Shown one piece after another: positions 1,357 to 18,047 of a stretch of DNA of 21,433 bases (position 1 is the first letter of the stretch; the number at the start of each line of letters is the position of its first letter). The translations under genes were made by a program, and so were the position numbers. The stretch is from a virus. The notes beneath the pieces are model-generated. The model was not told the origin of the DNA. It did not search any database and saw nothing but the letters and a program-made list of their open reading frames with translations. Location: positions 1 to 21,433 of IMG/VR virus record IMGVR_UViG_3300025430_000126; one strand, given 5' to 3'.

Positions 1357-3948
1357 TTAGAAACCGAATTTCATTTTACCATCAGCACCCATTACTAATT
1401 TGTTTCCTGCTGTTGAATTATTACCTTCTACATTAGAAGCAAGCCAGTCTTTAAAAGAAACACCACTTTGGAATTCTGGTGAAGCTTTCCATGCTTGCAT
1501 TTTAGCTGCATATTCACGAGCTTCAGGACCTTCACCTTTAATATCCATTAAAGTTTTTTTAAGTTCTGGATTTTTTGTTGCTGCTTGATATAACTGTAAT
1601 TCACCAGAAGGTTTATTAGTCTCTAAAAATTTCATGTATAAATCAAGAGGTTTCATTACAGCATCTTGTCTTTGTTTAGCCGCAGCTTCCCATTGACCAG
1701 AACGTGCTCTTTGTTCAGCTTCTAATATATCTGCTTGAGATTTAGATACTTCATTAATAGCTTTCTTAGCTTCATCTTCATCTTTAATATATAAAGGTAT
1801 TTGGTCTTTTAATGCAGACATAGCAGCATATGCCGTTGGACCTGGAATAGTAGCCATTTGAGCAAAAGCCGCAGCTGCATGTAAATACATTCTGCGTTTA
1901 GAATCATTGTCAGCATCATCAATTTGTTTTTGATATCTATCAATAATTTTTTGAGCCATTGGCGATACCTTCATTGTATAAGCTGCTTCTTCATCAAGCC
2001 TATCTTGCATAGACTTATTCATTTCTTCTTTTACATTTTTAGGTAGAGAATTAATAAAACTTTGATAACCACCTACACCACTTTGACCTGTTCCAGCTTC
2101 TTGACCTTGGTCAACTGTTGTTGCTGGTTTAGGTTGTGGTTGTGGTTGATTTGTTGCAGCTAATCCTGGTTGTACGCTAGGGCTTGCAGTATTAATTAAA
2201 GATGCTGTAGGATCGTTATAGTTATATTGTAATGGATTACCACTAGTATTTACAGCATCACTTGGAACAGGACTACCTGTTAAGTTAGCTTTTTGTGTAT
2301 TAATAGCTTTTTGATTAGCTGCCTGTTCTTGTAAGTTTTGAACATTAGCATTTTTTTCAGCTATGTTAGCTTCACGATTTTTAAAATATTCATCTAAATA
2401 TGGAGTTTTACCATACTTTTCTTCACGTGTTTGAACATTACCGTTTTCATCAACACCTGCTACACCACCTTTAAATGGATATCTTAATGCATCTTTAATA
2501 CCTGCTTTTATAGGATTATCAGTCACCATTAAACTAGGTGGGAATAAAGCTTTAAGTCCAGTTTCTACAGCTGGATCGACACCTGCTTGCCATGCATCAT
2601 ATTTAGCACTAGCTACATCGCTGTCAGTTACACTTCCATCTTTAAATGCAACAACACCACCAGAAGCTAAACCCATTTGTTTTTCTTTTTGGATTTTTTG
2701 AGCTTCTTCTCTAATCATTTGACTAGGTGATTGTAGTTCTTTTTTAAATGAATCTGGATCAGTATCATACATAGCTTCTAATCTAGCATCAAGACCTTCA
2801 GTTGCACCACCAATGCCATAAGCTGCAATTCCGCCTTTAGCCATAGCTTCAACTTTACCACCTTCTTTTTTACCAACATTATTTGCACCATATAGGGAAC
2901 CAAAAGCTCCTGCCATACCAATACCTTGAGTTAATGGGTTACCTACGGCATTATATGTTTGTGTTGTAGAAGCTTGCATTGGAAGACCACGCAACATATT
3001 AGACATAGTACCAAGTTCCATAAGTGGGTATTGTTGAGCATTTGCATAGTTTTGAATTTGTTGATTAATCATTTGTTGTTGCATTGCTTGTTGTTGAGCA
3101 CCAAATTGATTTTGTTGGTTTAATATATTTTGTTGACCAGCTAATTGTTCTTGTCCTAACTGACCTAATGTTTGACCTGCACCAATAGCTTGACCATAAC
3201 CTTGAAGACCTGCTTGTAATCCTTGTAATCCTAAACCAGCACCAAATTGTTCTTCTTGTTGTGCTTGATTAAATGCAGTGTTATAGCCTTGAGAAATAGC
3301 TTGTTGTTGAGCTAAGTTTTGGTTTTGTTGATTTAAGCCTTCCATCAATGCTTCACGAGAACCACCAAACGCACCAGCGCCTGTAGCTTGACCTTGAATG
3401 TTAGCATTTTGTTGGCCAAACTGTTGATTTAATAATTGTAGTTGTGGAGCTAGTGATGCTTGAACATATGGGTTCATTAATGACTGAGTCATCGCTGAAT
3501 TACCTGCCATATTAAAATAGTTTTGGCCAGTACCCATAGCTTGGTTAGCAAGACCCATAGAACCCATACCAGCTTGGCTTGCCATTCTAGAACCTACACC
3601 TATTTGACCTGGAAGTCTTAAAGCATTAGCCCCTGCCTGAGCTTGTTGCTGCATAGGTGAAAACCCTGCTACATAATCTTGAGCATTAGTACTATAAGGT
3701 TGATATGGTTTTAAACCTGTTAAAGTTACATTACCGTTTTTATCGGTTGTTGTATTAAATAGTTGTTTTTGAGTAGCACCAAGCATATTCTCAACATAAG
3801 GTTGAGCGTAATCTGGGATGTTAGTATTTTGAACTGTTGTTTGTGAAGGAGCAGATGAACCACCACCATCTCCACCCCAAAGAGTAAAAAAGTTATTAAC
3901 TAACCATGAAGGGTTTAGTAGAAATTTAAAACCATCTAATAATTTCAT
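1357..3948 (-). CDS. Gln/Gly-rich internal virion protein (863 aa)
   Basis: The ATG at 3948 overlaps the TGA of the GNAT-like gene by four bases (ATGA), so the two are probably translationally coupled. Residues 1-30 contain a short hydrophobic stretch followed by GGDGGG. Residues about 155-310 are extremely Gln/Gly/Ala-rich (for example FGQQNANIQGQATGAGAFGG), a pattern I recognise from phage internal virion proteins encoded after the tail genes. Two copies of a GG motif follow: KGGIAAYGIGG at 371-381 and a weaker ASGGVVAFKDG at 428-438, shared with the neighbouring 661-residue protein. Residues about 505-560 and 640-760 are charged and helical. No catalytic motif is visible. It probably forms part of the internal core or ejection apparatus. 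Family-level assignment is an inference from composition and gene order. Confidence 0.8.
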   Translation of the reverse strand: MKLLDGFKFLLNPSWLVNNFFTLWGGDGGGSSAPSQTTVQNTNIPDYAQPYVENMLGATQKQLFNTTTDKNGNVTLTGLKPYQPYSTNAQDYVAGFSPMQQQAQAGANALRLPGQIGVGSRMASQAGMGSMGLANQAMGTGQNYFNMAGNSAMTQSLMNPYVQASLAPQLQLLNQQFGQQNANIQGQATGAGAFGGSREALMEGLNQQNQNLAQQQAISQGYNTAFNQAQQEEQFGAGLGLQGLQAGLQGYGQAIGAGQTLGQLGQEQLAGQQNILNQQNQFGAQQQAMQQQMINQQIQNYANAQQYPLMELGTMSNMLRGLPMQASTTQTYNAVGNPLTQGIGMAGAFGSLYGANNVGKKEGGKVEAMAKGGIAAYGIGGATEGLDARLEAMYDTDPDSFKKELQSPSQMIREEAQKIQKEKQMGLASGGVVAFKDGSVTDSDVASAKYDAWQAGVDPAVETGLKALFPPSLMVTDNPIKAGIKDALRYPFKGGVAGVDENGNVQTREEKYGKTPYLDEYFKNREANIAEKNANVQNLQEQAANQKAINTQKANLTGSPVPSDAVNTSGNPLQYNYNDPTASLINTASPSVQPGLAATNQPQPQPKPATTVDQGQEAGTGQSGVGGYQSFINSLPKNVKEEMNKSMQDRLDEEAAYTMKVSPMAQKIIDRYQKQIDDADNDSKRRMYLHAAAAFAQMATIPGPTAYAAMSALKDQIPLYIKDEDEAKKAINEVSKSQADILEAEQRARSGQWEAAAKQRQDAVMKPLDLYMKFLETNKPSGELQLYQAATKNPELKKTLMDIKGEGPEAREYAAKMQAWKASPEFQSGVSFKDWLASNVEGNNSTAGNKLVMGADGKMKFGF

Positions 3949-4355
3949 ATTGATTTTTCCATAATATGCATTTGTGAATTAAGACCTAGTTTCATACGAT
4001 ATAATCTTGCTTGTGCTTCTTTTGCAAATAATCTTACTTTAGATGCGCCATTTGCTTTAGCCCATTGTTCTATTTGTGTAAATACTTCTTTATTAGCAAT
4101 ACCTCTACCACCTGTAGCAGTTATAGTAACTACTTTAAAATTAGGTTGATTGTTTATTTGTAAAGTCCCTGCACCAATAATAACTTCATTTTCAATAGCT
4201 ACAACTAGTGTTAATGACCTATTTAAAATATATAATTTCATATGGTCAATATTATAGTCATTCATACTAGCTTCAACTGAACGCTTTAACATAGGTTCAA
4301 CTGTTGGCCATACTTCATGAAGTATGTCTGGTGATACAGTTTTAACTTCTATCAT
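3945..4355 (-). CDS. GNAT acetyltransferase-like protein in the internal virion gene block
   Basis: This 136-residue protein overlaps both neighbours by ATGA (4352-4355 and 3945-3948). Its fold signature is GNAT-like: a long N-terminal helix pair (about 10-40), strands at about 48-66 (LTLVVAIENEVIIGAGTLQI) and 73-80, then a GGRGIANKE segment at 82-90 in the place of the acetyl-CoA pyrophosphate loop, followed by a helix (EVFTQIEQWAKANG) and strand KVRLFA. The usual Q/RxxGxG/A loop is only partly kept, so catalysis is uncertain. T7 gp13, also about 140 residues and also encoded beside internal core proteins, is as I recall predicted to have a related fold. This gene may be its functional counterpart, with a role in assembling the internal core rather than acetylating a small molecule. 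That comparison is inference from size, fold signature and position. Confidence 0.7.
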   Translation of the reverse strand: MIEVKTVSPDILHEVWPTVEPMLKRSVEASMNDYNIDHMKLYILNRSLTLVVAIENEVIIGAGTLQINNQPNFKVVTITATGGRGIANKEVFTQIEQWAKANGASKVRLFAKEAQARLYRMKLGLNSQMHIMEKSI

Positions 4356-6393: not shown

Positions 6394-7029
6394 TTATGAA
6401 TACTGAATTCTAATGGCTGGAACGTATACCGTAGGGGTAATTCCAGGTAATGTTTGTGTTACTAATGATGAGCCTGTGCTACTAGCCCAAATATAATAAC
6501 GAGTTTGTTCTCCAGCAACTGTATATACTGATTGTGGATTTACATATTGTACTGTTTGTCCATTAACTAAATCATAGTATTTACCTGAGTTGGTTGTATT
6601 AGTCCAACCAGAACCAGTATTCTTTTGAGCATATACATATGCAAATTGGTTAGCGCTAGATGTTGTAATATTTAAAGAGATAGATATAGAATAAGTACCT
6701 GTGTACTGAAATGTAAATACTCCAGTTGTATTGTCATAAGTAATACCACTACTACCTGCAACCGTACTAGCAGGAAGTAATAATGTTGGAGTAGTAGCTA
6801 AAGATATAGAAGATGTTAAATCATATGCTTCAATATGTGCATTACTATACCCTGTCGCTGTTGTTAAAGCTGCAGTAGCACCAGTTGTATAATTATCAAT
6901 TTGGTTAAAATATAATCTTAAAGCATTAGAATGTTGTTCTGCATGTCTTTGACTATAATCAACAGGTGATATAGGTAAGTTAGGTGATTTAGTTGATATT
7001 AATGTTGTAGTTTTTAAATCAGTAGCCAT
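6394..7029 (-). CDS. C1q/TNF-like jelly-roll virion protein (211 aa)
   Basis: ATG at 7029 overlaps the nozzle stop codon by one base (TAATG). Residues about 25-46 carry a charged helix RHAEQHSNALRLYFNQIDN, which I recognise as a conserved segment in phage proteins encoded directly after the nozzle and which probably forms the attachment or trimerisation helix. Residues about 75-211 look like a C1q/TNF-type beta sandwich: TGVFTFQYTGTYSISISLNI is the characteristic 'F-x-x-x-G-x-Y' strand pair, followed by further alternating strands ending in PAIRIQYS. Such trimeric heads are common at fibre tips and on tail appendages. It is probably a short fibre or appendage attached to the nozzle. The receptor, if any, is unknown. 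Confidence 0.7.
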   Translation of the reverse strand: MATDLKTTTLISTKSPNLPISPVDYSQRHAEQHSNALRLYFNQIDNYTTGATAALTTATGYSNAHIEAYDLTSSISLATTPTLLLPASTVAGSSGITYDNTTGVFTFQYTGTYSISISLNITTSSANQFAYVYAQKNTGSGWTNTTNSGKYYDLVNGQTVQYVNPQSVYTVAGEQTRYYIWASSTGSSLVTQTLPGITPTVYVPAIRIQYS

Positions 7030-9392
7030 TACCTTCTACCATCTTTTCTAATATCAATTCTAGGTACACCAAGTTGCCAAGCCACACCTAATGAATTAGA
7101 TTCAATTCTAAAGCTTAATTGACGACCACGAAGTCTTGTATAAACTTGTCCTGTAAATTGTTGTACTGTATATTCAGGTATAGTTTGATAGTTTTGTGAG
7201 CTTGTAACTTGTGGATTATCAGCTACTCCATAAGCTGTACCTGAGTTTTGACGCGGTTTAAGTGTCATAGTTACATATGGATCATTTACATTCGATCCAT
7301 TAAAGTTAACGTCTGGTAATATACGCCATACAAATCCAAAGTTATGACCGTCTTCTATATCAAAATCAGATGATTGAACATAAGCATCAATAGGTTGAGC
7401 TGTAATACCTGATACATCATCAACACCAACTTCATGATTTAATAAATAACTTGCGTTATTTGTAACTGTTATTGGTATAGGTGCCATAGAACTTCCAACA
7501 GTTTGACTAAAATTAACAGTATATGTACCAACGCCACCTAGTCCTGTAGATGCAGTTGTATAGGCTGTACCTGAACCAGTCCCAGCACCCGTAGCTACAA
7601 ACGTAACTCCAACGGTATTAGATGAAGCTCCAATAGCCACAAAGTTAGTTGTACCAAGAGTTGCTATAGTGTATGTATTCCCTACAACAAAATTACCTGC
7701 AGTATATGTAACATTGACTGGATTATTTACTCCATTAGTTAAAACCGTAGTTCCTGCTGTAATCCCAGTACCAGTAATAGTAGCTCCTATTTCAATAGAT
7801 CCTGCTGTAGCGTTTGTTATAGTTAAAGTATTACCACTAATATAACCTGTCATTGACGCATTAGTTGTAAAGTATGCAGCGACAGGGTTAGGTAATATAC
7901 CAGAACCACTCCATGCAGTTCTTTCCATAGTGCCATAATACCAAACTTGATCTAGATAATTATAGATAACATAACTATCAATTACTGATGAATTTTTAGA
8001 GCAATAGAACCACCATACTTCATTGTAGCCTTCATTAGCTCCAGCAAATACTTGGTAGCTTTGAGACTGATTTATATTAGCGTAAATATACTGACGAAGT
8101 GAACAAGGTAAAGTTTGTACAGTACCTGAATACATGTAGAACTTTTCTTGACCCATCCAATAAGTCACATTGTTAATCGTAATCATGGAATTTGGACTCA
8201 TCACAGAGATGTTATCCATTAGTATATTGAATCCCCAGATATAAGGTGCGCCTAGATACTGCATAGAATATAGGGCTGAATCTGTCCAAATTAAAATTTC
8301 TTGACGAGTGGCACGAGCTCCCATAATGTATGAACCATTAGTTAACGTGAATTCACCTGATTGATTTGTAACAGATGGTACCCATTGGAATGGATTTAAT
8401 TGATCTGACCATCGTACCAACATAGGATTAAATGTTGTATTTGCATTAGTAGGATCGTATGAATTAGCACCAAACGCAATAACAAACTTTTGAATCGCAG
8501 AAGTAATTACTTGATATGTTGAGTTTGGTACAAATTGACCAGCATTACCGTTTGCAGTAGCTTGAGTTTTAACTAATTGAGCACGAGTTGATAAGCCACC
8601 TGAAGTTCCATTAGGATAATTACCTGATGGTTGCCAGTAATAAATTGGTCCACCTCGTGGAGCTAGGAATAAATACTCACCATAGTTATCATTAGTCCAA
8701 AGTCTTAATTGTGCACCAATACCAGATGCACCTGAATAAGCTGAACCCCAACCACCAAAACCCCAAGGGCTTACACCCCAACCTGTACTTTGAGTATATA
8801 CATTTAGACCTGTTGGAATTTCATAATTAACTGTGAAAGTACCACCTGTACCTGTATCACTTGAGTTAGCAGTAACAACTATACCTGAAGTGTTTTTAGC
8901 AGTAATAGTAAAGTTACCAGAACCAACTCCTGTAATTACGTATTCTTGATTTAATACAGTAGCTGTAATATTGCCACCTAAACCTGTAGCACCTGATATA
9001 ACTACATAATCTCCAACAGCATATGTTGTATATGTACCATCAGTAATAGTTAATGTACTTGATCCATTAGTAGCTGTAATCGCAGCAGTTAAAGAACTAC
9101 TAGCATAATAAGGTGTGATGTCGTAGTAAGTACCACTCCAGTTTAAATAGTATTTAACATTAGAACCTACGCCTACATAGTTATTACTAGCTAAATCTAC
9201 CCAGTCCCATAAACCACGAGCTGTACCTAAAAAAGAATTATTACTATTTAAAAACCTAGTCCATCCACCGATTTTTTCAGGGTATCCTGAACGGAAGCGA
9301 ATCTTGTCGCCATCATACCAACCACCCTCATTGGAGTAGTCAGTACCTTCACGGTTAAGTCCTGGTTTAAGTGTTAGTTTTTGTAAGGGCAT
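7029..9392 (-). CDS. Tail nozzle / DNA stabilisation-type protein with inserted beta modules (787 aa)
   Basis: The N-terminus (KLTLKPGLNREGTDYSNEGG, then WYDGDKIRFRSGYPEKIGGW) and the C-terminus (YTVQQFTGQVYTRLRGRQ, ending VAWQLGVPRIDIRKDGRR) are, from memory, the conserved ends of a phage nozzle family. These proteins form the distal tube of podovirus tails, comparable in role to T7 gp12 or P22 gp10. Residues 200-500 carry the Trp/Tyr-rich propeller-like body (LNPFQWVP, LMDNISVMSPNSMITINN). Two segments look foreign to this body: residues about 102-191 and about 512-642, Thr/Gly/Ala-rich beta sequence with an apparent insert within the second. The gene starts one base after the endolysin stop and lies about 10 kb from the adaptor gene. 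Family call is strong; insert boundaries are approximate. Confidence 0.85.
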   Translation of the reverse strand: MPLQKLTLKPGLNREGTDYSNEGGWYDGDKIRFRSGYPEKIGGWTRFLNSNNSFLGTARGLWDWVDLASNNYVGVGSNVKYYLNWSGTYYDITPYYASSSLTAAITATNGSSTLTITDGTYTTYAVGDYVVISGATGLGGNITATVLNQEYVITGVGSGNFTITAKNTSGIVVTANSSDTGTGGTFTVNYEIPTGLNVYTQSTGWGVSPWGFGGWGSAYSGASGIGAQLRLWTNDNYGEYLFLAPRGGPIYYWQPSGNYPNGTSGGLSTRAQLVKTQATANGNAGQFVPNSTYQVITSAIQKFVIAFGANSYDPTNANTTFNPMLVRWSDQLNPFQWVPSVTNQSGEFTLTNGSYIMGARATRQEILIWTDSALYSMQYLGAPYIWGFNILMDNISVMSPNSMITINNVTYWMGQEKFYMYSGTVQTLPCSLRQYIYANINQSQSYQVFAGANEGYNEVWWFYCSKNSSVIDSYVIYNYLDQVWYYGTMERTAWSGSGILPNPVAAYFTTNASMTGYISGNTLTITNATAGSIEIGATITGTGITAGTTVLTNGVNNPVNVTYTAGNFVVGNTYTIATLGTTNFVAIGASSNTVGVTFVATGAGTGSGTAYTTASTGLGGVGTYTVNFSQTVGSSMAPIPITVTNNASYLLNHEVGVDDVSGITAQPIDAYVQSSDFDIEDGHNFGFVWRILPDVNFNGSNVNDPYVTMTLKPRQNSGTAYGVADNPQVTSSQNYQTIPEYTVQQFTGQVYTRLRGRQLSFRIESNSLGVAWQLGVPRIDIRKDGRR
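7467..7859 (-). other. Inserted beta module in the nozzle (outer)
   Basis: Residues about 512-642 of the nozzle interrupt the conserved body between GILPNPVAAY and YLLNHEVGVDDVSG. The sequence starts MTGYISGNTLTITNATAGS, continues through ITGTGITAGTTVLTNG, and resumes after a further insert with GLGGVGTYTVNFSQTVGS. This order of short strands (ISGxTLT, GTGITAGTT, GVGTYTVN-x-SQTV) is a module I recall from many unrelated phage structural proteins. It is probably surface exposed. Confidence 0.6.
7560..7709 (-). other. Second module nested inside the nozzle insert
   Basis: Residues about 562-611 (YTAGNFVVGNTYTIATLG, TTNFVAIGASSNTVGVTF, VATGAGTGSGTAY) split the outer module between its GTGITAGTT and GVGTYTVN strands. 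Taken alone it reads as a complete small unit with its own Gly-rich end. Removing it rejoins the outer module, which suggests one cassette inserted into another. Confidence 0.5.
8820..9089 (-). other. Inserted beta module near the nozzle N-terminus
   Basis: Residues about 102-191 (ITATNGSSTLTITDGTYTTY, VGDYVVISGATGLGGNITA, EYVITGVGSGNFTITAKNTS) form a Gly/Thr/Ile-rich run between DITPYY and the Trp-rich body. Its strand pattern and composition differ from the flanking Trp/Tyr-rich sequence, and I recall similar units in other phage nozzle-like proteins. It may be an ancestral part of this family rather than a recent insert. Confidence 0.45.
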
Positions 9393-9393
9393 A

Positions 9394-9840
9394 TTATTCT
9401 TTTATAAATAAATCATGTTCGGCTTGTCTTCTTTTAACTAGGCCTTGTTCTGAAACTCCACCTGCGAAATGAAACTTTAAAATGTCGTTAGCTGCAGCAC
9501 TCCACAAACTAGCGTTTATATCTTTAAGAAGCGTACTTTTTTGTAACGTGCCAATACCCAAGTTATAACAGAAAGAACAAAGAGCATCAAACTGATTCTG
9601 GGTAAGTTGCACTCTAATAAGCATATTAATTCCTGATTCAGTACGAGTGAGATCATTAACCAAAAAACCATCTATTTCTTCTTGTGTAAATATTCTGTTA
9701 TCGCCTGACGGCAACGATTTACCATCCCCGATAAGATGACCATAACCAACAGTCCATAGACCAATGCTGTCACGATAAGGGTGATAACGGCAACCTTCAA
9801 AGCGTTTAATAAGATCAATCCCATTTTGTGAAATTCTCAT
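9394..9840 (-). CDS. GH24 (T4-type) lysozyme endolysin
   Basis: This 148-residue protein is a full-length GH24 muramidase, which cleaves the MurNAc-GlcNAc bond of peptidoglycan at the end of infection. The catalytic triad spacing is intact: Glu15 in KRFEG, Asp24 in PYRDSIG and Thr30 in LWTVGYGH match T4 Glu11/Asp20/Thr26 with the same intervals. The C-terminal FHFAGGVSEQGLVKRRQAEH segment is also typical. There is no N-terminal signal or signal-anchor segment, so release to the periplasm should depend on the holin encoded just upstream (stop at 9844, ATG at 9840). No spanin gene is recognisable nearby, so outer-membrane disruption is unexplained within the window. Confidence 0.95.
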   Translation of the reverse strand: MRISQNGIDLIKRFEGCRYHPYRDSIGLWTVGYGHLIGDGKSLPSGDNRIFTQEEIDGFLVNDLTRTESGINMLIRVQLTQNQFDALCSFCYNLGIGTLQKSTLLKDINASLWSAAANDILKFHFAGGVSEQGLVKRRQAEHDLFIKE

Positions 9841-9843
9841 TTA

Positions 9844-10239
9844 TCACTTCTTTAAACTTAAATACATTCTTTCGCCAATGACAAAACTCATACAAGCACC
9901 TGTCATATCTAACAATACAGAAACTACGCTAACTCCTACGATTTGTGGGAAAAAGCATACAACTCCTGTAAAAACAAAGATTGCACTAATAATTACATAT
10001 CTATAGCAAGCTCTTAAATCTACAATCCATTGTGATGGTTGACCCATATTAGGGTTATCTAATGCCGCTAAAGCTTGTAGTTTTTGTGCTTCTGCTTCCA
10101 TTAACTGGATGCGTTCTTGTACATTTTGAGGCTGACCACCAGCACCGCCAGTAATCTTGGCAATTAAACCTCTAACACCATCAGTAAACGCTGGAACTAA
10201 TGCAGGTAATATTAAATTTAAAATAGTACCTGTAAACAT
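9844..10239 (-). CDS. 3TM-type holin (131 aa)
   Basis: The protein has an N-terminal hydrophobic helix (about 5-18), a charged middle (EAEAQKLQALAAL), the conserved NPNMGQPSQWIVDLRACYRY segment (62-81), then two hydrophobic segments (about 81-97 and 99-122) ending in FVIGERMYLSLKK. The 'W-x-V-D-L-R-A-x-Y-R-Y' segment before the membrane pair and the GER-x-x-x-x-x-K ending fit the 3TM holin family found in phages and gene transfer agents. It should form lesions in the inner membrane that let the downstream endolysin out. ATG at 10239 overlaps the stop of the preceding 50-residue gene by one base (TAATG), so the two are probably coupled. Whether the N-terminal helix spans the membrane is uncertain. 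Confidence 0.85.
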   Translation of the reverse strand: MFTGTILNLILPALVPAFTDGVRGLIAKITGGAGGQPQNVQERIQLMEAEAQKLQALAALDNPNMGQPSQWIVDLRACYRYVIISAIFVFTGVVCFFPQIVGVSVVSVLLDMTGACMSFVIGERMYLSLKK

Positions 10240-10391
10240 TATTGTGCGTCTTTAGTTAATACTGTATCTAGTTTTTGTAATACTAAGATAGTTTCTTCAA
10301 CTAATACTTTAAGACCACGAAGAGCTACTTTAAAAGACCATAAAGCCGCGGCTTTAATAAAATCCCAAACTTGTGCTAATTTTGCTTTCAT
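10239..10391 (-). CDS. Small amphipathic helical protein upstream of holin (50 aa)
   Basis: ATG at 10391-10389 is preceded by GGAG at 10400-10397, with five bases between, which is a strong ribosome binding site. The frame runs 50 codons (MKAKLAQVWDFIKAAALWSF... ending KLDTVLTKDAQ) and its TAA shares one base with the holin ATG. The sequence is almost entirely helical, alternating Lys/Glu with Leu/Val/Ala/Trp. It has no uninterrupted hydrophobic run long enough to be a clear membrane span. Its place between the nuclease and the holin suggests a role in lysis timing or holin modulation, but nothing in the sequence proves this and I recognise no family. Confidence 0.75.
   Translation of the reverse strand: MKAKLAQVWDFIKAAALWSFKVALRGLKVLVEETILVLQKLDTVLTKDAQ
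10341..10356. repeat. Perfect 16-base GC-centred palindrome
   Basis: TAAAGCCGCGGCTTTA reads the same on both strands. It lies inside the 50-residue gene, where it encodes IKAAAL, and includes CCGCGG, rare in this A+T-rich sequence. On the minus strand it could fold as a 6-base stem with a CGCG loop followed by TGGTCTTTT. It may be coding coincidence, a protein-binding dyad or a weak attenuator. Confidence 0.4.
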
Positions 10392-10399
10392 AATATCTC

Positions 10400-10849
10400 C
10401 TATTTGTTAAATGTTTTTAAGTAACACATTACCCAGTCTGTTTTAATACACATCTGAGCATCTATGATATTCATTTGACCCTTACAAATTCTTCTATGTA
10501 ATTCGTTTTCTAGCTTATCTTTATCATGTGCATTGTATTTACCACAATAACTTTGAGGCCATAGATTTTGAGCATCATTAGCACCGCCAAGTTCTAAAGA
10601 TACTAAATGATCTATTTCATAACCTTCACCACAAAGATTTCTATCATTACCAGTTAAGCCATAACTCGCAAACACTTTTTTCTTTAACGAGTCAGGTACA
10701 TTTCTAACTGCAGATGTTGATGTAGTACATAGCTCTGTAACTGTAACACTACGCATGTAACCTGGTGTTAGTTTTAAATCAGGTAACTCTGCTGGTATGC
10801 CATTAGATAAATGAAGCATAAATAGTGCAAATAAACCTAGTTTGTTCAT
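10400..10849 (-). CDS. Secreted HNH-type nuclease-like protein (149 aa)
   Basis: Residues 1-20 (MNKLGLFALFMLHLSNGIPA) look like a signal peptide with a plausible cleavage after Ala20. The mature part has the layout of a family of HNH proteins I recall from phages and bacteria: LTPGYMRSVTV, then VPDSLKKKVFASYGL, then YEIDHLVSLELGGANDAQNL (77-96) followed by WPQ, and AHDKDKLENELHRRICKG (107-124). His81 after Asp80, Asn91/Asn95 and His108 are candidate metal or catalytic residues. Six cysteines lie in the mature part (41, 73, 102, 122, 134, 142), which would allow disulfides outside the cytoplasm. The ATG overlaps the preceding 44-residue gene by four bases (ATGA). It could degrade DNA in the periplasm or after lysis; that target is inference. 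Confidence 0.8.
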   Translation of the reverse strand: MNKLGLFALFMLHLSNGIPAELPDLKLTPGYMRSVTVTELCTTSTSAVRNVPDSLKKKVFASYGLTGNDRNLCGEGYEIDHLVSLELGGANDAQNLWPQSYCGKYNAHDKDKLENELHRRICKGQMNIIDAQMCIKTDWVMCYLKTFNK

Positions 10850-10980
10850 GCGGGTTGTGTAGCTTCTGCTTGTAGTCTTGCTACTTCTTCATCACTATAA
10901 GGTATAATAGTTACCTCACCTGTGATTGAATCTGTTTGTGCTGTACATAAACCTAAGTTGATTTTTTCTTGATCTGTCAT
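10846..10980 (-). CDS. Small acidic protein of unknown function (44 aa)
   Basis: ATG at 10980-10978 follows the stop of the 205-residue fibre gene by one base, and GGAG inside that gene's last codons (Gly-Val) lies nine bases upstream as its ribosome binding site. The product (MTDQEKINLGLCTAQTDSIT, then GEVTIIPYSDEEVARLQAEA ending TQPA) ends with TGA inside the ATGA overlap with the nuclease gene. The C-terminal 'PYSDEEVARLQAEA' helix resembles short C-terminal segments common in phage tail-associated proteins, but I cannot name a family. Tight packing on both sides and a clear ribosome binding site argue that it is real. A fibre-assembly role is only a guess from position. Confidence 0.7.
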   Translation of the reverse strand: MTDQEKINLGLCTAQTDSITGEVTIIPYSDEEVARLQAEATQPA

Positions 10981-11001
10981 ATTATTTCACTCCGTAAATT
11001 A
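10978..11001 (-). repeat. 24-base exact repeat, copy 1: fibre 3' end plus next start codon
   Basis: Bases 10978-11001 are identical to 12258-12281. The unit covers the final codons of a fibre gene (Tyr-Gly-Val-Lys-stop), a GGAG ribosome binding site within them, and the ATG of the following gene. Flanking bases differ between the copies. Confidence 0.9.
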
Positions 11002-11599
11002 CAATTGTGCCTGATGCTGAAAATGTTGATGTGCTTTGATGCCTAAAATAAATTGTTGTTGATGATGTTGAAACATTTGTTAAACCACCAAAAGCACAAG
11101 TATGAACAGTAACTGTATTATCACTTAAACTTCCACCAAGAGCGCCAGTTCCTAAATCCAACCAAAAAACACCTGAACTTGCATTACCACCACCAATAAA
11201 ACCACCACCTGATTGTTGATTGTTACTTGAAATATAACAAGCATCATTATTATTAGATGAATTCACATTATTAATTACAATTTGCAATGATTTATATGAT
11301 GTTAAAGTTAATCCTGATAATGAAAGTGAATTGACTGCTGTTGGTGTAATAGTACCAAGTAATGTCATGCCACCAGAAGGTGCTGAGCTTACCCATGTAG
11401 TACCGTTATCAGATAATACATTACCACTTGTACCTGCAGCTGGTAGTTGAGTTTGAACCCAAGCTGAACCATTGTAGACTTCTAAAAAGCCTAGTGTGGT
11501 ATTGTAACCCATTTGACCTGTAGCTGGAGATGCTGGACGACCAGAGGTAATCCATGATGGGAAGGTTTCTCCGTTTGTTCCGTCTAATATAAGTGACAT
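10982..11599 (-). CDS. Tail fibre / receptor-binding tip protein (205 aa)
   Basis: Residues 1-50 include GRPASPATGQMGYNTTLGFL followed by EVYNGSAWVQ, the 'G-x-x-x-Y-N-T-T-x-x-x-x-E-V-Y-N-G-x-W' signature common in phage fibre proteins. Residues about 55-75 (PAAGTSGNVLSDNGTTWVSS) form a fibre linker. Residues 78-205 form a distal domain that is paralogous to that of the 192-residue protein: both begin MTxLGTIT, share LTSYKxLxxVxNxV and end IxIYGVK. Ser, Asn and Gly dominate the middle. The ATG at 11599 has TAGGAAAT upstream. It probably forms a trimeric fibre tip or a branch on a larger fibre. The receptor is unknown. Confidence 0.75.
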   Translation of the reverse strand: MSLILDGTNGETFPSWITSGRPASPATGQMGYNTTLGFLEVYNGSAWVQTQLPAAGTSGNVLSDNGTTWVSSAPSGGMTLLGTITPTAVNSLSLSGLTLTSYKSLQIVINNVNSSNNNDACYISSNNQQSGGGFIGGGNASSGVFWLDLGTGALGGSLSDNTVTVHTCAFGGLTNVSTSSTTIYFRHQSTSTFSASGTIVIYGVK

Positions 11600-11609
11600 T
11601 GTCTATTTC

Positions 11610-12260
11610 CTATTCGTATAAGATGTTTACTGAACCAGCGTCAAAAGTGTCTGTGCCGTTTACTGTGGTAATGCGAACTCGATCTAAAACACCAGATGTT
11701 GTTTTTATTCCTGAGCTAGAATTTATTGCCAATGCAGAATTATATAAATTTCCGCTTTGAGTCCAAATATTTCCACTTAAAAGACAAAGTGCAATAAAAC
11801 CATTTTGAGTAGACACTGCTGAATTTGAGGAAACTAAAAGATAACCAGTTGTTGCAGCTACAATGACATTAGTGCTGCCAATTAATTGAACAGCTCCTGA
11901 CGAATATCCTGTTGTTTCAATAGACCCAGAACCAATTTGTAATTGAAGATTACTTGTTCCGCTTGTACTAACGCCATTAAACATCACAGTAATGCGTTTG
12001 ACCCATGACGGAATAGACGTAAAGTCAATGCTTGTTCCTGACGTAGAAGCTACTGCTGTTCCTGAGACTATTTTAGCTGTAGGTGTTAATGTAGAACCAT
12101 CTGTAGAAAATGGTATTTGACCTATTGCAGAAACAGCACTAGATAAAACTGCTGAAGTGCCTGTTTGTGCTGGTAAAGTGATTGTATTTGAACCAGCTAC
12201 CGCTGGGGCTGCTAAGGTAATGGTACCTGAACTATCGCCTGAAATGACTACTGATGACAT
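11610..12260 (-). CDS. Tail fibre / receptor-binding tip protein (216 aa)
   Basis: The N-terminus (MSSVVISGDSSGTITLAAPA, then VAGSNTITLPAQTGT) is a short beta repeat that I recognise as a common opening of phage fibre proteins. The distal part (about 65-216) contains SGTSIDFTSIPSWVKRITVM, a conserved strand set seen in many fibre tips, and ends RVRITTVNGTDTFDAGSVNI followed by LYE. This tip differs in sequence from the two neighbouring tip proteins but has the same length, the same two-part build and a similar final strand (GSVNILYE versus GSIIIYGVK). The ATG at 12260 follows the previous stop by one base and uses the GGAG inside the upstream gene's last codons. Likely role: receptor recognition or fibre branching. 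Confidence 0.75.
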   Translation of the reverse strand: MSSVVISGDSSGTITLAAPAVAGSNTITLPAQTGTSAVLSSAVSAIGQIPFSTDGSTLTPTAKIVSGTAVASTSGTSIDFTSIPSWVKRITVMFNGVSTSGTSNLQLQIGSGSIETTGYSSGAVQLIGSTNVIVAATTGYLLVSSNSAVSTQNGFIALCLLSGNIWTQSGNLYNSALAINSSSGIKTTSGVLDRVRITTVNGTDTFDAGSVNILYE

Positions 12261-12281
12261 ATTATTTCACTCCGTAAATTA
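12258..12281 (-). repeat. 24-base exact repeat, copy 2: fibre 3' end plus next start codon
   Basis: This copy is identical to 10978-11001 and lies exactly 1280 bases away in the same orientation. It joins the end of the 192-residue fibre gene to the start of the 216-residue gene and supplies the latter's ribosome binding site. Confidence 0.9.
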
Positions 12282-12840
12282 TGATTGAACCATTATCAAA
12301 TGTAGCACCACCAGTATAAACTGTAATTACAGTTGAAGCAGTTGTATAAGTGGAAATACCAGTATAAGGGCTACTATTATTTCCTGTTGGAGCCGCACCT
12401 GTTGGAACAGGAGATGTATTAGCCCAATAAACTCCATTAGATAAATCTATGTAAACTGAACCATAAAAGTTATCACTAACTGCAGCTAACTGTGTTGTTA
12501 TTTGAGCTAATGGTCCTGAAGCAAGATAAAGTTTACTAGTAGCTGTTGCAGAATTTGTTGACACTGCATTAAATACTAATAATAATTGTTTATAACTAGT
12601 TAAACTTAAAGTTCCTGAAGATGCAGAAGTTCCTGATGTAGTTGTTATTGTTCCAAGATTTGTCATACCACCAGTACCTACAAATCCACCAGTAGCTGTT
12701 ACAGTCCCTGCAAATGTAGCATTTTGTGATGCATCTATCGTTAGTGCAGTTACACCAGAGGTTTGTAGTTGTAATTGACCACTAGTATCAGCTGTCTGGA
12801 TTAGTCCATTAGAGGTTGAAGCGTTTATCGTGACTGCCAT
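12262..12840 (-). CDS. Tail fibre / receptor-binding tip protein (192 aa)
   Basis: Residues 1-57 (MAVTINASTSNGLIQTADTS, GQLQLQTSGVTALTIDASQN, ATFAGTVTATGGFVG) are the 'L-T-I-D-x-S-Q-N-x-x-F-x-G-T-V' fibre-stalk signature widespread in phage fibres. Residues 59-192 form a distal domain paralogous to that of the 205-residue protein, opening MTNLGTIT and ending GSIIIYGVK, with a different, Thr/Pro/Asn-rich middle (SPVPTGAAPTGNNSSPYTG). ATG at 12840 has AAGGATATATT upstream. It is probably one of several alternative or co-assembling tip proteins; sequence alone does not say which contacts the host. Confidence 0.75.
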   Translation of the reverse strand: MAVTINASTSNGLIQTADTSGQLQLQTSGVTALTIDASQNATFAGTVTATGGFVGTGGMTNLGTITTTSGTSASSGTLSLTSYKQLLLVFNAVSTNSATATSKLYLASGPLAQITTQLAAVSDNFYGSVYIDLSNGVYWANTSPVPTGAAPTGNNSSPYTGISTYTTASTVITVYTGGATFDNGSIIIYGVK

Positions 12841-12849
12841 AATATATCC

Positions 12850-14244
12850 TTATAAAATAACCCAACGAGATCCTGCTGGGATAGTAACTTTTACATTAGT
12901 TGTAAATGATTGAGTACCTGATTGAGTTCCAGATGTAGCTAATGGAGTACCTCCATATGTAGCGGCAATCTGAAATGTAGAACCTGATACGTTTACTGCA
13001 TAATAAGTTGTACCTGCTGTAATACCTGTAGGTAATGCACCTGTAGTTGCAAACACCACAGTAGAACCAAACAAAGGAACTGTTCCTGATGCTGTTATAA
13101 CACCTGGTGTTGCTATAGTAATAGTGCAAGGTTGTGAAGCTACTCCAGGATTTATAGTAATAGGTCCTACAGATTCACCATTTTTACTTGTAGTCATTGT
13201 GTAACTTACAGTGATTTGTTTGTTGTTTTCATATACAACACCACCAGCTACAGCACCACTACCACCACCTATAGCACCCCATGTACCTGAATATCCTTCA
13301 AAACTACCTGTAGTAGTATTGTAACGAATCATACCATATGTAGGAGATGCTGGCTCTTGAGCTGTTGTTCCTACTGGTAAAGTAATAGCACCTGTACTAT
13401 TAAAAGTAAATCCATTTGGTATATAAACAGTAGGCGTATTAAATGTAACACTAGAATTAATAACCATTGATATAGTAGGATCATATCCACTGGTTGTATT
13501 TACAGGGTTGGCACCATTTAATGTAGTTGATAAGTTAAATGTATAAGGTCCTGTTCCTGTTATATTATATGCATAATATGTAGCACCAGATGTAATTCCA
13601 GATGGCAAAGATCCAGTAGATGTAAACGACACTTGCGCGTTTTGTTTTGGAGGAGTTCCAGAAGCTAATGTTACAACAGCAGGGCTTGCTTGAGATATTG
13701 TTACCGTTTGAGCTGTAGGATTAACTCCTAAAAATGCTCCATCATAAGCATACATATCATAAAACGAACCATTGGCAATAGTTGTACCACCAATAGTTGT
13801 ACCGTCAATAGTACCACCAATAATAGCTACATTAGACGGATTATAGTTAGTTGCTAAATAAAAACCTGTAGTGCCATCAGTATACATAATATATGTAATA
13901 CCACTAGGCACAGTAATAGTAGTTCCCGAACCAATAGACATAATCACATTTTTAGTCGTATTGTTTCTAACAATATATGTTTTAGCTACAGCTGGAGCTG
14001 TAACAGTGCAATCACCTGATGGACTACCTGAGAATACTAAAACAGCATTTCTTGATTGGTCAGTTAAGCCATTATTAGCCGTTAATGTATATGTGGTTCC
14101 AGTAAGCGTAATAGCGCCTACGCCTGTAATGGCTTGTTCTAATAAAGTACCTAGATTGGTATTGGTAGTATTACCCCAAGTACCTGCTTGCTCACCTGTA
14201 GCTATGAGCTGCAATCTTAAACTGGTTGAATAGGTGGATGCCAT
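12850..14244 (-). CDS. Tail fibre protein with two inserted beta modules (464 aa)
   Basis: Residues 1-42 (MASTYSTSLRLQLIATGEQA, GTWGNTTNTNLGTLLEQAIT) are a well-known phage fibre N-terminus that probably binds the tail. Residues 43-135 continue as beta-rich stalk (VLVFSG, TYIVRNNTTKNV). Residues 299-326 carry PASPTYGMIRYNTTTGSFEG followed by YSGTWGAIGG, another common fibre signature. Two copies of one module lie at about 178-263 and 368-450 (consensus P-x-V-x-T-x-x-G-x-x-P ... TTGxLPxGITxGxTYY ... TF). The second splits the C-terminal sequence SVGPITINPG / VKVTIPAGSRWVIL, which in the 929-residue fibre is continuous. The gene follows a 46-base gap with a possible promoter and has AAGGA nine bases before the ATG. 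Confidence 0.8.
   Translation of the reverse strand: MASTYSTSLRLQLIATGEQAGTWGNTTNTNLGTLLEQAITGVGAITLTGTTYTLTANNGLTDQSRNAVLVFSGSPSGDCTVTAPAVAKTYIVRNNTTKNVIMSIGSGTTITVPSGITYIMYTDGTTGFYLATNYNPSNVAIIGGTIDGTTIGGTTIANGSFYDMYAYDGAFLGVNPTAQTVTISQASPAVVTLASGTPPKQNAQVSFTSTGSLPSGITSGATYYAYNITGTGPYTFNLSTTLNGANPVNTTSGYDPTISMVINSSVTFNTPTVYIPNGFTFNSTGAITLPVGTTAQEPASPTYGMIRYNTTTGSFEGYSGTWGAIGGGSGAVAGGVVYENNKQITVSYTMTTSKNGESVGPITINPGVASQPCTITIATPGVITASGTVPLFGSTVVFATTGALPTGITAGTTYYAVNVSGSTFQIAATYGGTPLATSGTQSGTQSFTTNVKVTIPAGSRWVIL
12895..13143 (-). repeat. Fibre module 'TTGxLPxGIT', copy 2
   Basis: Residues about 368-450 of the 464-residue fibre include QPCTITIATPGVITASGTVP, VVFATTGALPTGITAGTTYY and STFQIAATYGGTPLATSGTQ. 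The module sits between GPITINPG and VTIPAGSRW, at the point where the 929-residue fibre reads GPITVSSG directly into VTVTVPSGSRW. The comparison defines both insertion edges to within a few residues. Confidence 0.75.
13456..13713 (-). repeat. Fibre module 'TTGxLPxGIT', copy 1
   Basis: Residues about 178-263 of the 464-residue fibre include VTISQASPAVVTLASGTPPK, VSFTSTGSLPSGITSGATYY and PYTFNLSTTLNGANPVNTTS. It aligns along its length with copy 2 in the same protein (P-A/G-V ... S/T-G-S/A-LP-S/T-GIT ... TYYA-x-N ... TF), but is clearly diverged, so the two are not a recent tandem duplication. Confidence 0.7.
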
Positions 14245-14271
14245 GTAAAAATCCTTATATCATTAGTTAAT

Positions 14272-14301
14272 ATTATAGTCAATTTTATCGTTATTGACTA
14301 T
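14272..14301 (-). promoter_or_regulatory. Hairpin and possible promoter before the 464-residue fibre gene
   Basis: A perfect 9-base inverted repeat (14275-14283 and 14293-14301, 9-base loop) spans the stop codon of the 321-residue gene. On the minus strand the distal arm runs into a perfect TATAAT (14277-14272), 28 bases before the fibre ATG. There is no T-run after the stem as in a classical terminator, and no clear -35 box. It could be a weak terminator, a processing hairpin or a promoter. A 13-base stretch of this site also occurs inside the GNAT-like gene (4248-4260), which lowers its specificity. Confidence 0.3.
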
Positions 14302-15256
14302 CATTTATTGGGTTCCAAGTCGATGTTTCTGTATTATTAACCATACCCCATGTGCTATTTGTAGGGGTATTAATAATTGTCCAAGTACCAGAATTGTTAT
14401 TATTTACTAATACCCACGTATTAGTCTGACTATTCGCATTAGCTTGCCAATTATTTGCTTCAGTATTATTAACATTTGACCATCCTTTAGTTGTGTATAA
14501 ATCTAATAATCCTAAAGTTTCTAGGGTTGATGCTAAAAAATTAGCTTTGCTTGTTATTGAATCTGCTAGTGAGGCATTTTCTGTTATAGAGTATATAATT
14601 TGTTTTATTGCTACATTACTATCTGCATACTGAGCATCTTCTGTTATAGTAAATATAAAAGCATTGGTTAGTGTTTCTATATCAGCTAATGTAGTGGCTT
14701 CAGTTATACTGTTTACAAACTGAGCTGTAATTGAAACTAAATCAGCTAAACTAAAGTTTTCAGTAATACTTTCTAAAGCATTAAACTGTTGAGTATTTAA
14801 ATCAGTAAATACGGCATTTTCAGTTAAACTTTCCAAGAATGTTGATAGCTGGGTGCTAAAATCAGCCAAAGTCATTGGCTCTGATATTGTTTCTTGGAAT
14901 GTAGAAACTTCAGTATTAAAGTCATTTAATATGACATTTTCACTAAATGAAACTAAAAAGTTATACTGTTGTGTAGATGAATCATTAAAGCTTACATTTT
15001 CAGTATCAGATACACTAAACTGGGCGGTGATTGTTAGAACATCTGTAATTCCAGCATTGTCAGTAAATGTAACCGCAAATTGAGCTGATATGGTAGGTGT
15101 ATCATTTAGCGTTGCATTCTCAGTAATACTTTGTAAAAACTGAGATAATTCACTATTTAAATCAGCTAATGTAGTATTTTCTGTAATACTAAAAGGGTAA
15201 TAATTTCCCCCTAAAGCTACAAAAGGGCTTTGAGAGAATACATTTAAACCAAACAT
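14291..15256 (-). CDS. Two-part repeat protein: twelve 20-residue units, then six 11-residue Trp units (321 aa)
   Basis: After a short N-terminus (MFGLNVFSQSPFVALGGNYY), residues 21-258 are built of twelve units of 20 residues without one insertion or deletion, the last slightly short. The unit is roughly hydrophobic-x-S-I-T-E-N-A-x-L-x-D-x-x-T-x-x-A-x-F (for example LESITENFSLADLVSITAQF). The acidic residue after T, the later Asp and the closing Phe are the most constant positions. Residues 259-321 switch to a different repeat: Trp at 259, 270, 281, 292, 303 and 314, exactly 11 apart, with Asn/Thr/Ser between (TWTIINTPTNS). Such regularity suggests a solenoid or fibrous rod with a Trp-rich end. 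The gene starts one base after the large fibre's stop, so it is probably a fibre component. I do not recognise a named family. Confidence 0.8.
   Translation of the reverse strand: MFGLNVFSQSPFVALGGNYYPFSITENTTLADLNSELSQFLQSITENATLNDTPTISAQFAVTFTDNAGITDVLTITAQFSVSDTENVSFNDSSTQQYNFLVSFSENVILNDFNTEVSTFQETISEPMTLADFSTQLSTFLESLTENAVFTDLNTQQFNALESITENFSLADLVSITAQFVNSITEATTLADIETLTNAFIFTITEDAQYADSNVAIKQIIYSITENASLADSITSKANFLASTLETLGLLDLYTTKGWSNVNNTEANNWQANANSQTNTWVLVNNNNSGTWTIINTPTNSTWGMVNNTETSTWNPINDSQ
14294..14482 (-). repeat. Six tandem 33-base (11-residue) Trp repeats
   Basis: These encode residues 259-321 of the repeat protein. Tryptophan recurs at exactly 11-residue intervals six times, with T/N-rich spacers and a hydrophobic pair after most Trp residues (WVLV, WTII, WGMV). 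The DNA copies are diverged, so the period is kept at protein level. Confidence 0.9.
14483..15196 (-). repeat. Twelve tandem 60-base (20-residue) repeats
   Basis: These encode residues 21-258 of the repeat protein. The T-E-N/D block recurs every 20 residues. At DNA level, bases of the form CAGTAATACT or CTGTTATAG recur every 60 bases from about 14581 to 15190, but the rest of each unit is diverged. There is no loss of register over about 700 bases. Confidence 0.92.
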
Positions 15257-15257
15257 G

Positions 15258-18047
15258 TTATACGACTACCCAGCGAGATCCAGATGGTACAGTTACTGTA
15301 ACTCCGCTTGAAACTGTAATTGGGCCTGCACTCATTGCATTAGAACCAGAAGGTATAGAATAAGATGTTGCAATGGTTGCTTTATTGACTACTAGACCAT
15401 TTGTTGCGTTTACTTGTGGTGCATTTAATGTACCAGCTGCTATATATGTTTGTGTTGTAGAGCTATTACCTATTACTGTTGTATTAGAGCCAAGACCTGT
15501 TTGGTTATAACCTATAACAATTTCATTAGTATCTGCCGCAGTAGATGCTTGTGCTTGATAACCTACAAATATGTTATTTGTGCCTGTGGTAAGAGCAGTT
15601 CCTGCGTAACCTGCTTGATAACCAATCGCAGTATTATTGCCACCTGTTGCTGAATATAAAGCCATATATCCAATACCTGTTAAAGCATTGGATGTTGAAT
15701 TACTTGCTAATGCTCCTGCTCCTACAGCAGTTAAATAATTTCCTGAAGTATTAGCATTTCCATTTGCTATACCCCCTGCATTTTGTCCTCCTACAAAAAC
15801 ATTATATGCTCCTGTAGTATTAGCATAACCTGCAGCAGCTCCGTAACCTACATTAAATCTACCTGAAGTAGTATTAACTAAACATTGAAAACCTGTTGCG
15901 GTATTTCCTGTAGCTACTGTATTTGCTGTTAAAGCCTGATATCCCACAGCAGTATTTTGTGTTCCACTTGCTAAAGATGCCACAGGAACGCTAAATCCAC
16001 TACCTGTTCCACCAATAGATGCGGCAGGTGCTGTTAATACTGTGGTTGTGTCTTTAAAGCCTACGCCATTAGATGTAAGTGTTACAGATGTTACTGCACC
16101 GCCTGATACTACGATAGTAGCGGTTGGGTATGTAGTGGCAGTAGAACCTGACGATAATGTCATGACTACACCAGTATATGTTCCTGCGGTGTATCCTGTT
16201 CCACCTGTAATAGTGCCTAGTGTGGCTACGTTGGTGGTGTTATTTTGTAGAGAACCATAACCAATTGCAGTTAAATTTCCTGTTATGGTATTGTTATAAA
16301 GAGATTGCCAACCTACCGCAGTATTAGCACTTGCTGTTGTATTATACCAAAGTGAGTTATATCCAATAGCAATATTATTACTACCTGATATATTTAATCT
16401 AAGCGCATTATGTCCAACACCTGTATTTTGATTGCCTGAAGTATTTGCATATAATGTAGCTTGACCAATACCAATGTTTTGATTGCCATTATTGTTACTT
16501 AATAATGCAGATGAACCAATAGCAACATTCTGTACGCCACCTGTTAAAGATGCAAGAACTTGATAACCTAATCCTGTATTATTTCCACCTGTTGCTGTTG
16601 CATTTAGTGCTTGGTAGCCAACAGCCATATTCGTGCTTACATTTCCCCCACCCAATCCAACAGTAACTGTGTTAAATGTAGAGTCAGCAGTTGTAGTTAA
16701 AGCACCAGCACTAGATAAATACATCTTCTCTGTAGGAGATGCACCGTTAGCGCTTATATAGAAACTTAATTTAGAAGTAGGTGGATTAACGTTGAATGTT
16801 AAAGCGTTTAATTGCATGTATGCTTGTGATGCTACTGCACCTGAAGCACTGTTCCATGCTGAAGCTGTAAAGCCTATAACAGGGCTATTTAAGAAACCGC
16901 CTGCAAATGCTGGGTAAGGTTGATAAGCCCAAATACCGCCTGTTGTTGGTGATGTAGATGCATTAGCACCGCCTGATGCGTAAATATTGCTAGATGATCC
17001 AATACCACCTACTACTGTTAAAGCACCTGTAGTGTTAGATGTAGAGTTAGTTGTTCCGCCAATAGCTACAGAGCCACTAGGAACAGAGATGTTGTTAGTG
17101 GTGGTTACTGCTGTTGTGGTTGTGGGTGTGTAGGATGATGCTACAGAGCCTAATTCTAACTGAGCTCCCCATGTATATACATATTCAGTTCCTGTTGCAC
17201 TCCATGATCTTGTATTAGCAGTTCCTGATCCTGATAAATAAAATTCAGGATAATTTGTGCCTGCTGTTCCAATAGCTGTAGTAATTGAGCAACGATACCA
17301 CCCACTTCCAACGGATGTAATAGATGATGTTACATTGGCATTAGTAAAGCCTACTGTGCCTGTAGATAAATTAAATGTAGCACCTAAAACACCTGTATTA
17401 GAAAAATCTAATGTTACAAAGTTATATGTTCCAGCTTTAAAGTATTGTGAATAAGTATATGTTGCCGCAGCATAAGTAGCAATTTCATATAAGCCGTGAG
17501 AATTATTAACATTTTGAGCTAATATTTTAGCCGCAGTTGATGTTCCATCAGGTGCTGTTGTGTTATTATCTGTAACAGTAACACCACCACCAGCATAAGT
17601 TTGAAACCAAGTTGCTCCAGTAAATGCTTGTGAATAGGTTATTAAATTATTCCCACCCTGTAAGTAGAGTTGTTTGTCTACTATGTTGTTATTAAATATT
17701 GAGGTAGAAGGTGTTACGACACCATTAAGAGGATCATTATAGACTGCTTGAGATGATGGATAATCAATCCATACATTCACTGAAGAACCAAATGTAGATA
17801 CTGCTGAACCAGAGTTACTTGAGGATAATATTGTAGAACGAGTTAGGGTAGGACCTGTAGACGAGTAAATACCAATACCAACTTCCCAGTTAGTACCGTC
17901 TGATGATCCATAAAATACAGTGTTACCGTTGGTGATACCAGCAGTAGCAAATGATTGATAACCCGTTACAGCTGAACCAAGAGTAAAACTTACTGTGGTA
18001 TTAGCTGTAGCGGTTACCTGGACTCTGTCTGCTATTTGAAGAGCCAT
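15258..18047 (-). CDS. Large tail fibre with lectin-like domain and YadA-head-like repeats (929 aa)
   Basis: Residues 1-105 (MALQIADRVQVTAT, WEVGIGIYSSTGPTLTRSTI, NVWIDYPSSQA) are a conserved phage fibre adaptor domain. Residues about 130-308 (NNLITYSQAFTGATW, TAPDGTSTAAKI, GWYRCSI, YTWGAQLELGSVASSYTPTT) form a jelly-roll domain often read as carbohydrate binding. Residues about 326-460 form a stalk. Residues about 472-866 are repeats of the YadA/Hep_Hag head type (NVAIGSSAL, NIGIGQATL, NTGVGHNAL, NIAIGYNSL), expected to fold as a trimeric beta roll. An unrelated module (about 611-692) interrupts them. Residues 908-929 (GPITVSSGVTVTVPSGSRWV) match the C-terminus of the 464-residue fibre. No intramolecular chaperone peptidase domain is seen. 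TAAGGAGCTTAA precedes the ATG. Confidence 0.82.
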   Translation of the reverse strand: MALQIADRVQVTATANTTVSFTLGSAVTGYQSFATAGITNGNTVFYGSSDGTNWEVGIGIYSSTGPTLTRSTILSSSNSGSAVSTFGSSVNVWIDYPSSQAVYNDPLNGVVTPSTSIFNNNIVDKQLYLQGGNNLITYSQAFTGATWFQTYAGGGVTVTDNNTTAPDGTSTAAKILAQNVNNSHGLYEIATYAAATYTYSQYFKAGTYNFVTLDFSNTGVLGATFNLSTGTVGFTNANVTSSITSVGSGWYRCSITTAIGTAGTNYPEFYLSGSGTANTRSWSATGTEYVYTWGAQLELGSVASSYTPTTTTAVTTTNNISVPSGSVAIGGTTNSTSNTTGALTVVGGIGSSSNIYASGGANASTSPTTGGIWAYQPYPAFAGGFLNSPVIGFTASAWNSASGAVASQAYMQLNALTFNVNPPTSKLSFYISANGASPTEKMYLSSAGALTTTADSTFNTVTVGLGGGNVSTNMAVGYQALNATATGGNNTGLGYQVLASLTGGVQNVAIGSSALLSNNNGNQNIGIGQATLYANTSGNQNTGVGHNALRLNISGSNNIAIGYNSLWYNTTASANTAVGWQSLYNNTITGNLTAIGYGSLQNNTTNVATLGTITGGTGYTAGTYTGVVMTLSSGSTATTYPTATIVVSGGAVTSVTLTSNGVGFKDTTTVLTAPAASIGGTGSGFSVPVASLASGTQNTAVGYQALTANTVATGNTATGFQCLVNTTSGRFNVGYGAAAGYANTTGAYNVFVGGQNAGGIANGNANTSGNYLTAVGAGALASNSTSNALTGIGYMALYSATGGNNTAIGYQAGYAGTALTTGTNNIFVGYQAQASTAADTNEIVIGYNQTGLGSNTTVIGNSSTTQTYIAAGTLNAPQVNATNGLVVNKATIATSYSIPSGSNAMSAGPITVSSGVTVTVPSGSRWVVV
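15972..16217 (-). repeat. Shared module 'GTGYxxGTY', copy in the large fibre
   Basis: Residues about 611-692 (GTITGGTGYTAGTYTGVVMT, YPTATIVVSGGAVTSVTLTS, IGGTGSGFSVPVASL) sit between two YadA-like units (TAIGYGSLQNN and NTAVGYQALTAN) without disturbing either. The same module occurs in the adaptor protein. Codon choice looks more G+C-rich here than in the flanking repeats. Confidence 0.75.

Follow-up and report, generated by a model that had tools for sequence, protein, structure and literature searches.

Phage HNH proteins are usually interpreted as homing or packaging enzymes. The locus described here raises the question of why a nuclease of this type, encoded close to the lysis genes of a phage, would carry an export signal, and on which DNA it would then act. 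The gene lies in a 21,433-base virus record (hereafter, the window). According to the ORF list and a PHROGs search, nearly all genes of the window are on the − strand, and they encode an ejection-type protein, a stabilization-type virion protein, lysis proteins and tail-fibre-like proteins.

Gene order around the nuclease

The HNH-type nuclease gene, whose product is predicted to be secreted, occupies positions 10400–10849 on the − strand and encodes 149 aa from an ATG start, as delineated by the ORF, a family alignment (A2) and an AF2 model. Its ATG overlaps, as ATGA, the stop of a 44-aa ORF (10846–10980, − strand). Only 8 nt after the nuclease stop, and preceded by AGGAG, begins a 50-aa lysis-region ORF (10239–10391, − strand) that is conserved and amphipathic, followed by a gene for a 131-aa membrane protein (9844–10239, − strand) and by a GH24 phage lysozyme gene (9394–9840, − strand) assigned as an endolysin by PF00959 (135.5 bits, E = 1.6e-39) and phrog_7. 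The 131-aa protein is a putative holin solely from its position and hydrophobic segments; its one PHROG match, phrog_28107, is of unknown function. This order agrees with the initial annotation, which had placed the nuclease gene upstream of and close to a holin and an endolysin. A scan for promoters and terminators was uninformative: it found no terminator, and its 5 promoter-like sites compare with 9.2 expected.

Next to the endolysin lies the gene for a virion stabilization-type structural protein (7029–9392, − strand; phrog_3287), which shares 37% identity with the ‘stabilization protein’ of phage DSL-LC04, its best-ranked match. In phage DSL-LC04, genes for a holin, an M15 peptidase and the stabilization protein follow one another in matching order, with no HNH gene at the corresponding place. 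The 50-aa ORF matched no family in Pfam, PHROGs or NCBIfam, and its homologues form a 28-member neighbour cluster. Judging from gene order, it travels with lysis and holin genes. We considered an immunity protein and set this idea aside, since in some loci the ORF is found at +3 rather than +1 of the nuclease and accompanies holin genes.

Elsewhere in the window, a run of repeat-rich fibre-like genes (10982–18047), several of them with common N-terminal motifs, suggests duplicated tail-fibre modules. A 136-aa ORF between two large structural genes (3945–4355) is acetyltransferase-like by eye and had no PHROG match at E 0.01.

Export signal, cysteines and catalytic core

A signal peptide had been proposed for the HNH-like protein, and its N-terminus, MNKLGLFALFMLHLSNGIPA^ELP, satisfies a simple signal-peptide rule. 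The rule is home-made and distinct from SignalP; it asks for a hydrophobic stretch, no acidic residue ahead of that stretch and small residues at −3 and −1. The segment so scored comprises residues 1–20 (10790–10849, − strand; GIPA^ELP), and its h-region is weak. The same rule marked 42/50 non-redundant viral relatives as signal-peptide-like versus 27/496 other genes of the same loci, a comparison that favours the HNH set somewhat, as HNH starts were chosen by a hydrophobicity-favouring score and control genes were taken at their first start. The cleavage region is kept in kind, not in letters (GIPA^ELP, GVSA^ELP, AYA^ALP and AYA^GDL). A hydrophobic stretch at the N-terminus was found in each of the 78 bacterial relatives examined, with a lipobox-like motif in 20. 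Judged by sequence, the family is one of secreted or lipid-anchored HNH nucleases.

The mature part was said to contain six cysteines, and six indeed follow the predicted cleavage site of the 149-aa protein, at residues 41, 73, 102, 122, 134 and 142 (numbering of the full protein with Met; alignment outputs are one lower, as row 1 lacks it). Alignment A2 comprises 62 members, namely the window protein with viral and bacterial relatives, after removal of sequences containing X, of very long fusion proteins and of some distant relatives. C41 and C122 are invariant across the 62 rows. The pair C134/C142 is complete in 28 rows and entirely missing from the other 34, neither residue ever appearing singly; the pair C73/C102 is complete in 27 rows and entirely missing from 27. 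The remaining 8 rows have C73 without C102, and in these a further Cys immediately precedes the E-x-D-H motif. Cysteines gained and lost in pairs are expected of disulfides, which would fit an oxidising compartment. The likely bonds are an ancestral C41–C122, with C73–C102 and C134–C142 added in this phage clade.

The HNH core spans residues 80–118 (10496–10612, − strand). D80, H81, N95, K110, D111, E114 and H118 are identical in 62/62 rows of A2, and H108 is found in 57. Through D80, H81, N95, E114 and H118, the protein contains the catalytic set typical of the HNH / His-Me finger superfamily, (D/H)H ... N ... H/E. The HNH identity given to the protein at the outset is upheld by this retention of the catalytic residues throughout the alignment; together with the signal-peptide-like N-terminus, it answers both objections that the initial annotation had foreseen, namely lost active-site residues and a missing signal peptide. 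The AF2 model built from A2 (mean pLDDT 88.4, pTM 0.80) places strands 76–80 and 95–99 and helix 106–121 (148-residue numbering) at the HNH motif, forming a beta-beta-alpha core. VIA-align returned weak matches to HNH / His-Me finger enzymes, the best being Cas8-HNH (Z 5.0), followed by Sda1 (5fgw_B; Z 4.4, rmsd 4.4, 117 residues aligned) and the HNH protein of phage GVE2 (Z 4.1). For the modelled structure, these matches support the HNH fold class and no closer kinship.

Foldseek against the PDB found nothing at E ≤ 0.001 (best E 0.34), and a PDB sequence search with the single nuclease protein found nothing up to E 10; the family profile retrieved 7 PDB sequences, none better than E 0.078 and most of them matching through the HNH motif. 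Foldseek against BFVD matched three proteins of uncultured Caudovirales phages (A0A6J5L196, A0A6J7WMW0 and A0A6J5KMW5; E 8.5e-11 to 1.9e-6), which are database predictions and probably belong to the same nuclease family; two of them are labelled ‘HNHc domain containing protein’. With the nuclease as query, Endonuclea_NS_2 (PF13930) reached 18.3 bits against a gathering score of 27 and HNH_5 (PF14279) 14.8 bits against 27.5, both below the cut-off, and neither NCBIfam nor the PADLOC defence families gave a match at E ≤ 1. The best E values among the 62 members of A2 were 0.00033 for Endonuclea_NS_2, 2.6e-5 for HNH_5 and 0.0021 for HNH. The nuclease falls below every curated cut-off tried, so its relatives are named only generic HNH or hypothetical in the records examined. 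With the HNH (His-Me finger) nucleases (HNH, HNH_5, Cas8-HNH and the colicin/pyocin DNases) it shares the DH...N...H motif and the strand-strand-helix core, but it differs from them in scoring below the Pfam cut-offs and in being predicted to be exported with likely disulfides.

Relatives and their gene neighbourhoods

Pattern matches were confirmed as relatives of the nuclease in 291 of 448 cases in viral-contig stretches and in 286 of 295 cases in genome-contig stretches. The best 80 of the 291 and the best 80 of the 286 were retained; the latter include MAG contigs, which may contain viral DNA. For the viral set, 50 non-redundant loci were analysed; when records were searched for gene families, four of them (L026, L030, L048 and L077) were represented by longer contigs on which the gene is identical or almost so. 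Bacterial carriers of the family come from many phyla, and 45 of 72,556 plasmid records match the window nuclease query. Among 50,697 deposited phage records, the window nuclease had no match at E 1e-3, and the best E values there, 0.03 for an nrdB-linked phage member and 7 for a Streptomyces member, were not significant.

A tree of 145 rows, built from few columns and with many forks left open, unites 39 viral rows in one group (support 100/97) that includes the window gene through the identical protein L001. A separate 10-row viral group holds L079, L080, L084 and L089, which are linked to nrdB (ribonucleotide reductase small subunit); of the other nrdB-linked members, L090 branches elsewhere and L069 is outside the rows of the tree. 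Between the window gene and nine relatives, dN/dS was 0.09–0.23, with most dS > 1 and unreliable; as judged from these comparisons, the gene is under purifying selection. Given the frequency of signal-like N-termini (42/50 against 27/496), the invariant catalytic residues and these dN/dS values, the combination of signal, cysteines and lysis context is unlikely to have arisen by chance. In L010:5851-8685 (= L072) and L088, the nuclease domain belongs to much larger proteins, of 944 and 358 aa, whose N-termini are lipoprotein-like.

The lysis-gene context noted at first in a single phage recurs over many. An endolysin-type gene lies within 3.3 kb of the nuclease in 22 of the 50 viral records, drawn from four unrelated types: GH24 in 11, M15_3 in 9, GH108 in 2 and DUF5675 in 1 (one record has two types); the DUF5675 gene occupies the endolysin position, and its endolysin identity is putative. 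None of these four families was found in 28/50 records, many of which are short. In the eight records longer than 30 kb that contain an endolysin-type gene, the gap to the nuclease is 0.4–2.4 kb in 8/8, for which random independent placement gives a product of 1.5e-10, a figure that ignores kinship; gaps outside these eight records were taken by hand from locus tables. Because endolysin and holin types vary while the nuclease stays, the association appears to be kept.

The neighbourhood of the nuclease across viral records is not uniform. In 6 of the 50 it lies within 1.5 kb of nrdB, and this second phage group indicates that lysis timing is not the whole story for the family. Of 34/50 records searched for terminase, 13 had a terminase-family match, located within about 2 kb of the nuclease in 4 (one of which scores under the cut-off and is probably a PhoH-type ATPase), at ~4.7 kb in 2 and at 12–57 kb in 7. 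In L021, L043 and L008, the nuclease gene is found among virion-type genes.

Several further neighbours were observed. The nuclease is near ribonucleotide reductase genes in L084:3860-6097, L079, L069, L089 and L090, and in some of these loci a SegE-type GIY-YIG endonuclease is encoded two genes on. Many relatives (L033:844-1185 and similar; a 17-member cluster) have, immediately upstream of the nuclease, a gene for a 113-aa protein with an HExxH zinc-peptidase-like motif, whose cluster representative matched only PHROGs of unknown function. In members from Methylococcales and Deinococcota (L012:4636-4959, L013:4717-5037, L100, L103 and L115), the nuclease is followed by a gene of ~107 aa with no obvious signal peptide; a cytoplasmic inhibitor is possible, and this gene was not seen beside phage copies.

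Candidate roles of the nuclease

From its sequence features, we consider it highly probable that the nuclease is exported, and it probably acts on DNA outside the cytoplasm, unlike most phage enzymes of this kind. Starting from the features with direct support (gene, family, catalytic residues, signal-like N-terminus, paired cysteines, conserved neighbourhood and purifying selection), we favour on balance an exported, disulfide-stabilised DNase that would be made with the lysis proteins and clear unprotected DNA from the periplasm and the lysate. The protein would be synthesised alongside the lysis proteins, a late timing that we infer, and travel by the Sec route to the periplasm, where as many as three disulfides would form as it folds. 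Since it would be exported, and would need its disulfides to fold, the cytoplasm would contain either none of it or an inactive form, which would spare the replicating DNA of the phage itself. Its periplasmic substrate would be naked DNA, such as DNA brought in by a superinfecting phage; after rupture of the cell by holin and endolysin, it would escape into the lysate and cut host DNA there, each activity being of presumed benefit to the phage.

An arrangement of this kind has been described. In the prophages of Streptococcus pyogenes, secreted DNase genes adjoin lysin and holin genes, and the streptodornases (Sda1 and relatives) covered by the same account are likewise secreted phage-genome DNases in this position (PMC2609857); a secreted DNase beside lysis genes is, given this precedent, not new in kind. 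Sda1 is larger, with 247 residues in the chain versus 149 aa here, and is encoded by prophages whose host is a Gram-positive pathogen. Host periplasmic endonuclease I (EndA/Vvn) is an exported DNase of the same broad fold, encoded by a host gene and belonging to a different family. Among the open-licence papers that our searches listed, we found no recognisable description of the present nuclease family or of a phage-encoded secreted HNH nuclease.

Which substrate would matter most is harder to say. Cutting of host DNA after lysis could free virions from viscous DNA and debris, and we hold this as a tentative candidate for the main role: the gene is placed with four kinds of endolysin-type gene (GH24, M15, GH108 and DUF5675), much as the streptococcal prophage DNases are placed (PMC2609857), yet the nrdB-linked group is left unexplained and dilution in open water would lower the benefit. 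That second context suits a role not tied to lysis, such as destruction of the DNA of later phages in the periplasm of the infected cell, and the export signal and paired cysteines would put the nuclease on the path of incoming DNA. For phage T4, it is described that the DNA of a superinfecting phage, when trapped in the periplasm, stabilises an antiholin–holin complex and delays lysis (PMC12642591), a view that another paper calls a working hypothesis (PMC6832632). This makes a periplasmic DNase beside a holin gene of interest, as it could also set lysis timing. Late, lysis-linked expression would, however, give brief protection only; internal virion proteins of podophages reportedly protect DNA against nucleases of the periplasm (PMC8951688); and the word ‘nuclease’ is absent from the main text of a 2024 review devoted to superinfection exclusion (PMC11436027). 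We regard a superinfection barrier as rather unlikely to be the main role. Of the three roles proposed initially, these two and an attack on competitors, the last is the least supported, given the absence of a receptor-binding part and of a consistent partner gene; a colicin-like toxin was rejected because the protein is one small domain with no receptor part and no consistent immunity-type neighbour.

The proximity to nrdB in 6/50 viral records, with the SegE-type endonuclease gene of L084 two genes on, would also accord with breakdown of extracellular or periplasmic DNA for uptake of nucleotides or phosphorus, as would the secreted-type enzymes of the bacterial members. Such salvage is improbable for the window phage, where no nrd gene was seen and a late lysis-linked gene would leave little time for it. 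It is very improbable that the protein is an ordinary phage HNH enzyme, serving in homing or in packaging with the terminase, whose N-terminus is hydrophobic by chance. HNH proteins are known as packaging parts (PMC8951688), and a terminase-family match is near the nuclease in 4 of the 13 records having one, but it is 12–57 kb away in seven others, which led us to set a packaging HNH aside. A homing endonuclease was rejected because no interrupted coding gene was seen in the window and because synteny is stable and selection purifying. The signal-like N-termini of 42/50 relatives and the paired cysteines stand against both forms of this reading.

What appears new is a probably secreted HNH family in uncultured phages, missed by the curated models tried and recurrently linked to lysis genes. 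The family argues for another compartment than the one implied by the usual homing or packaging reading of phage HNH proteins. It is doubtful, on present evidence, that the enzyme, as a widespread periplasmic DNase recurrent in the lysis modules of uncultured phages, destroys superinfecting DNA and so removes a signal or a rival before lysis. If true, this would amount to a nuclease-based, envelope-located form of superinfection exclusion, without counterpart in the deposited phage collection searched. The family offers a simple, testable entry to the question of whether phages police DNA in the periplasm.
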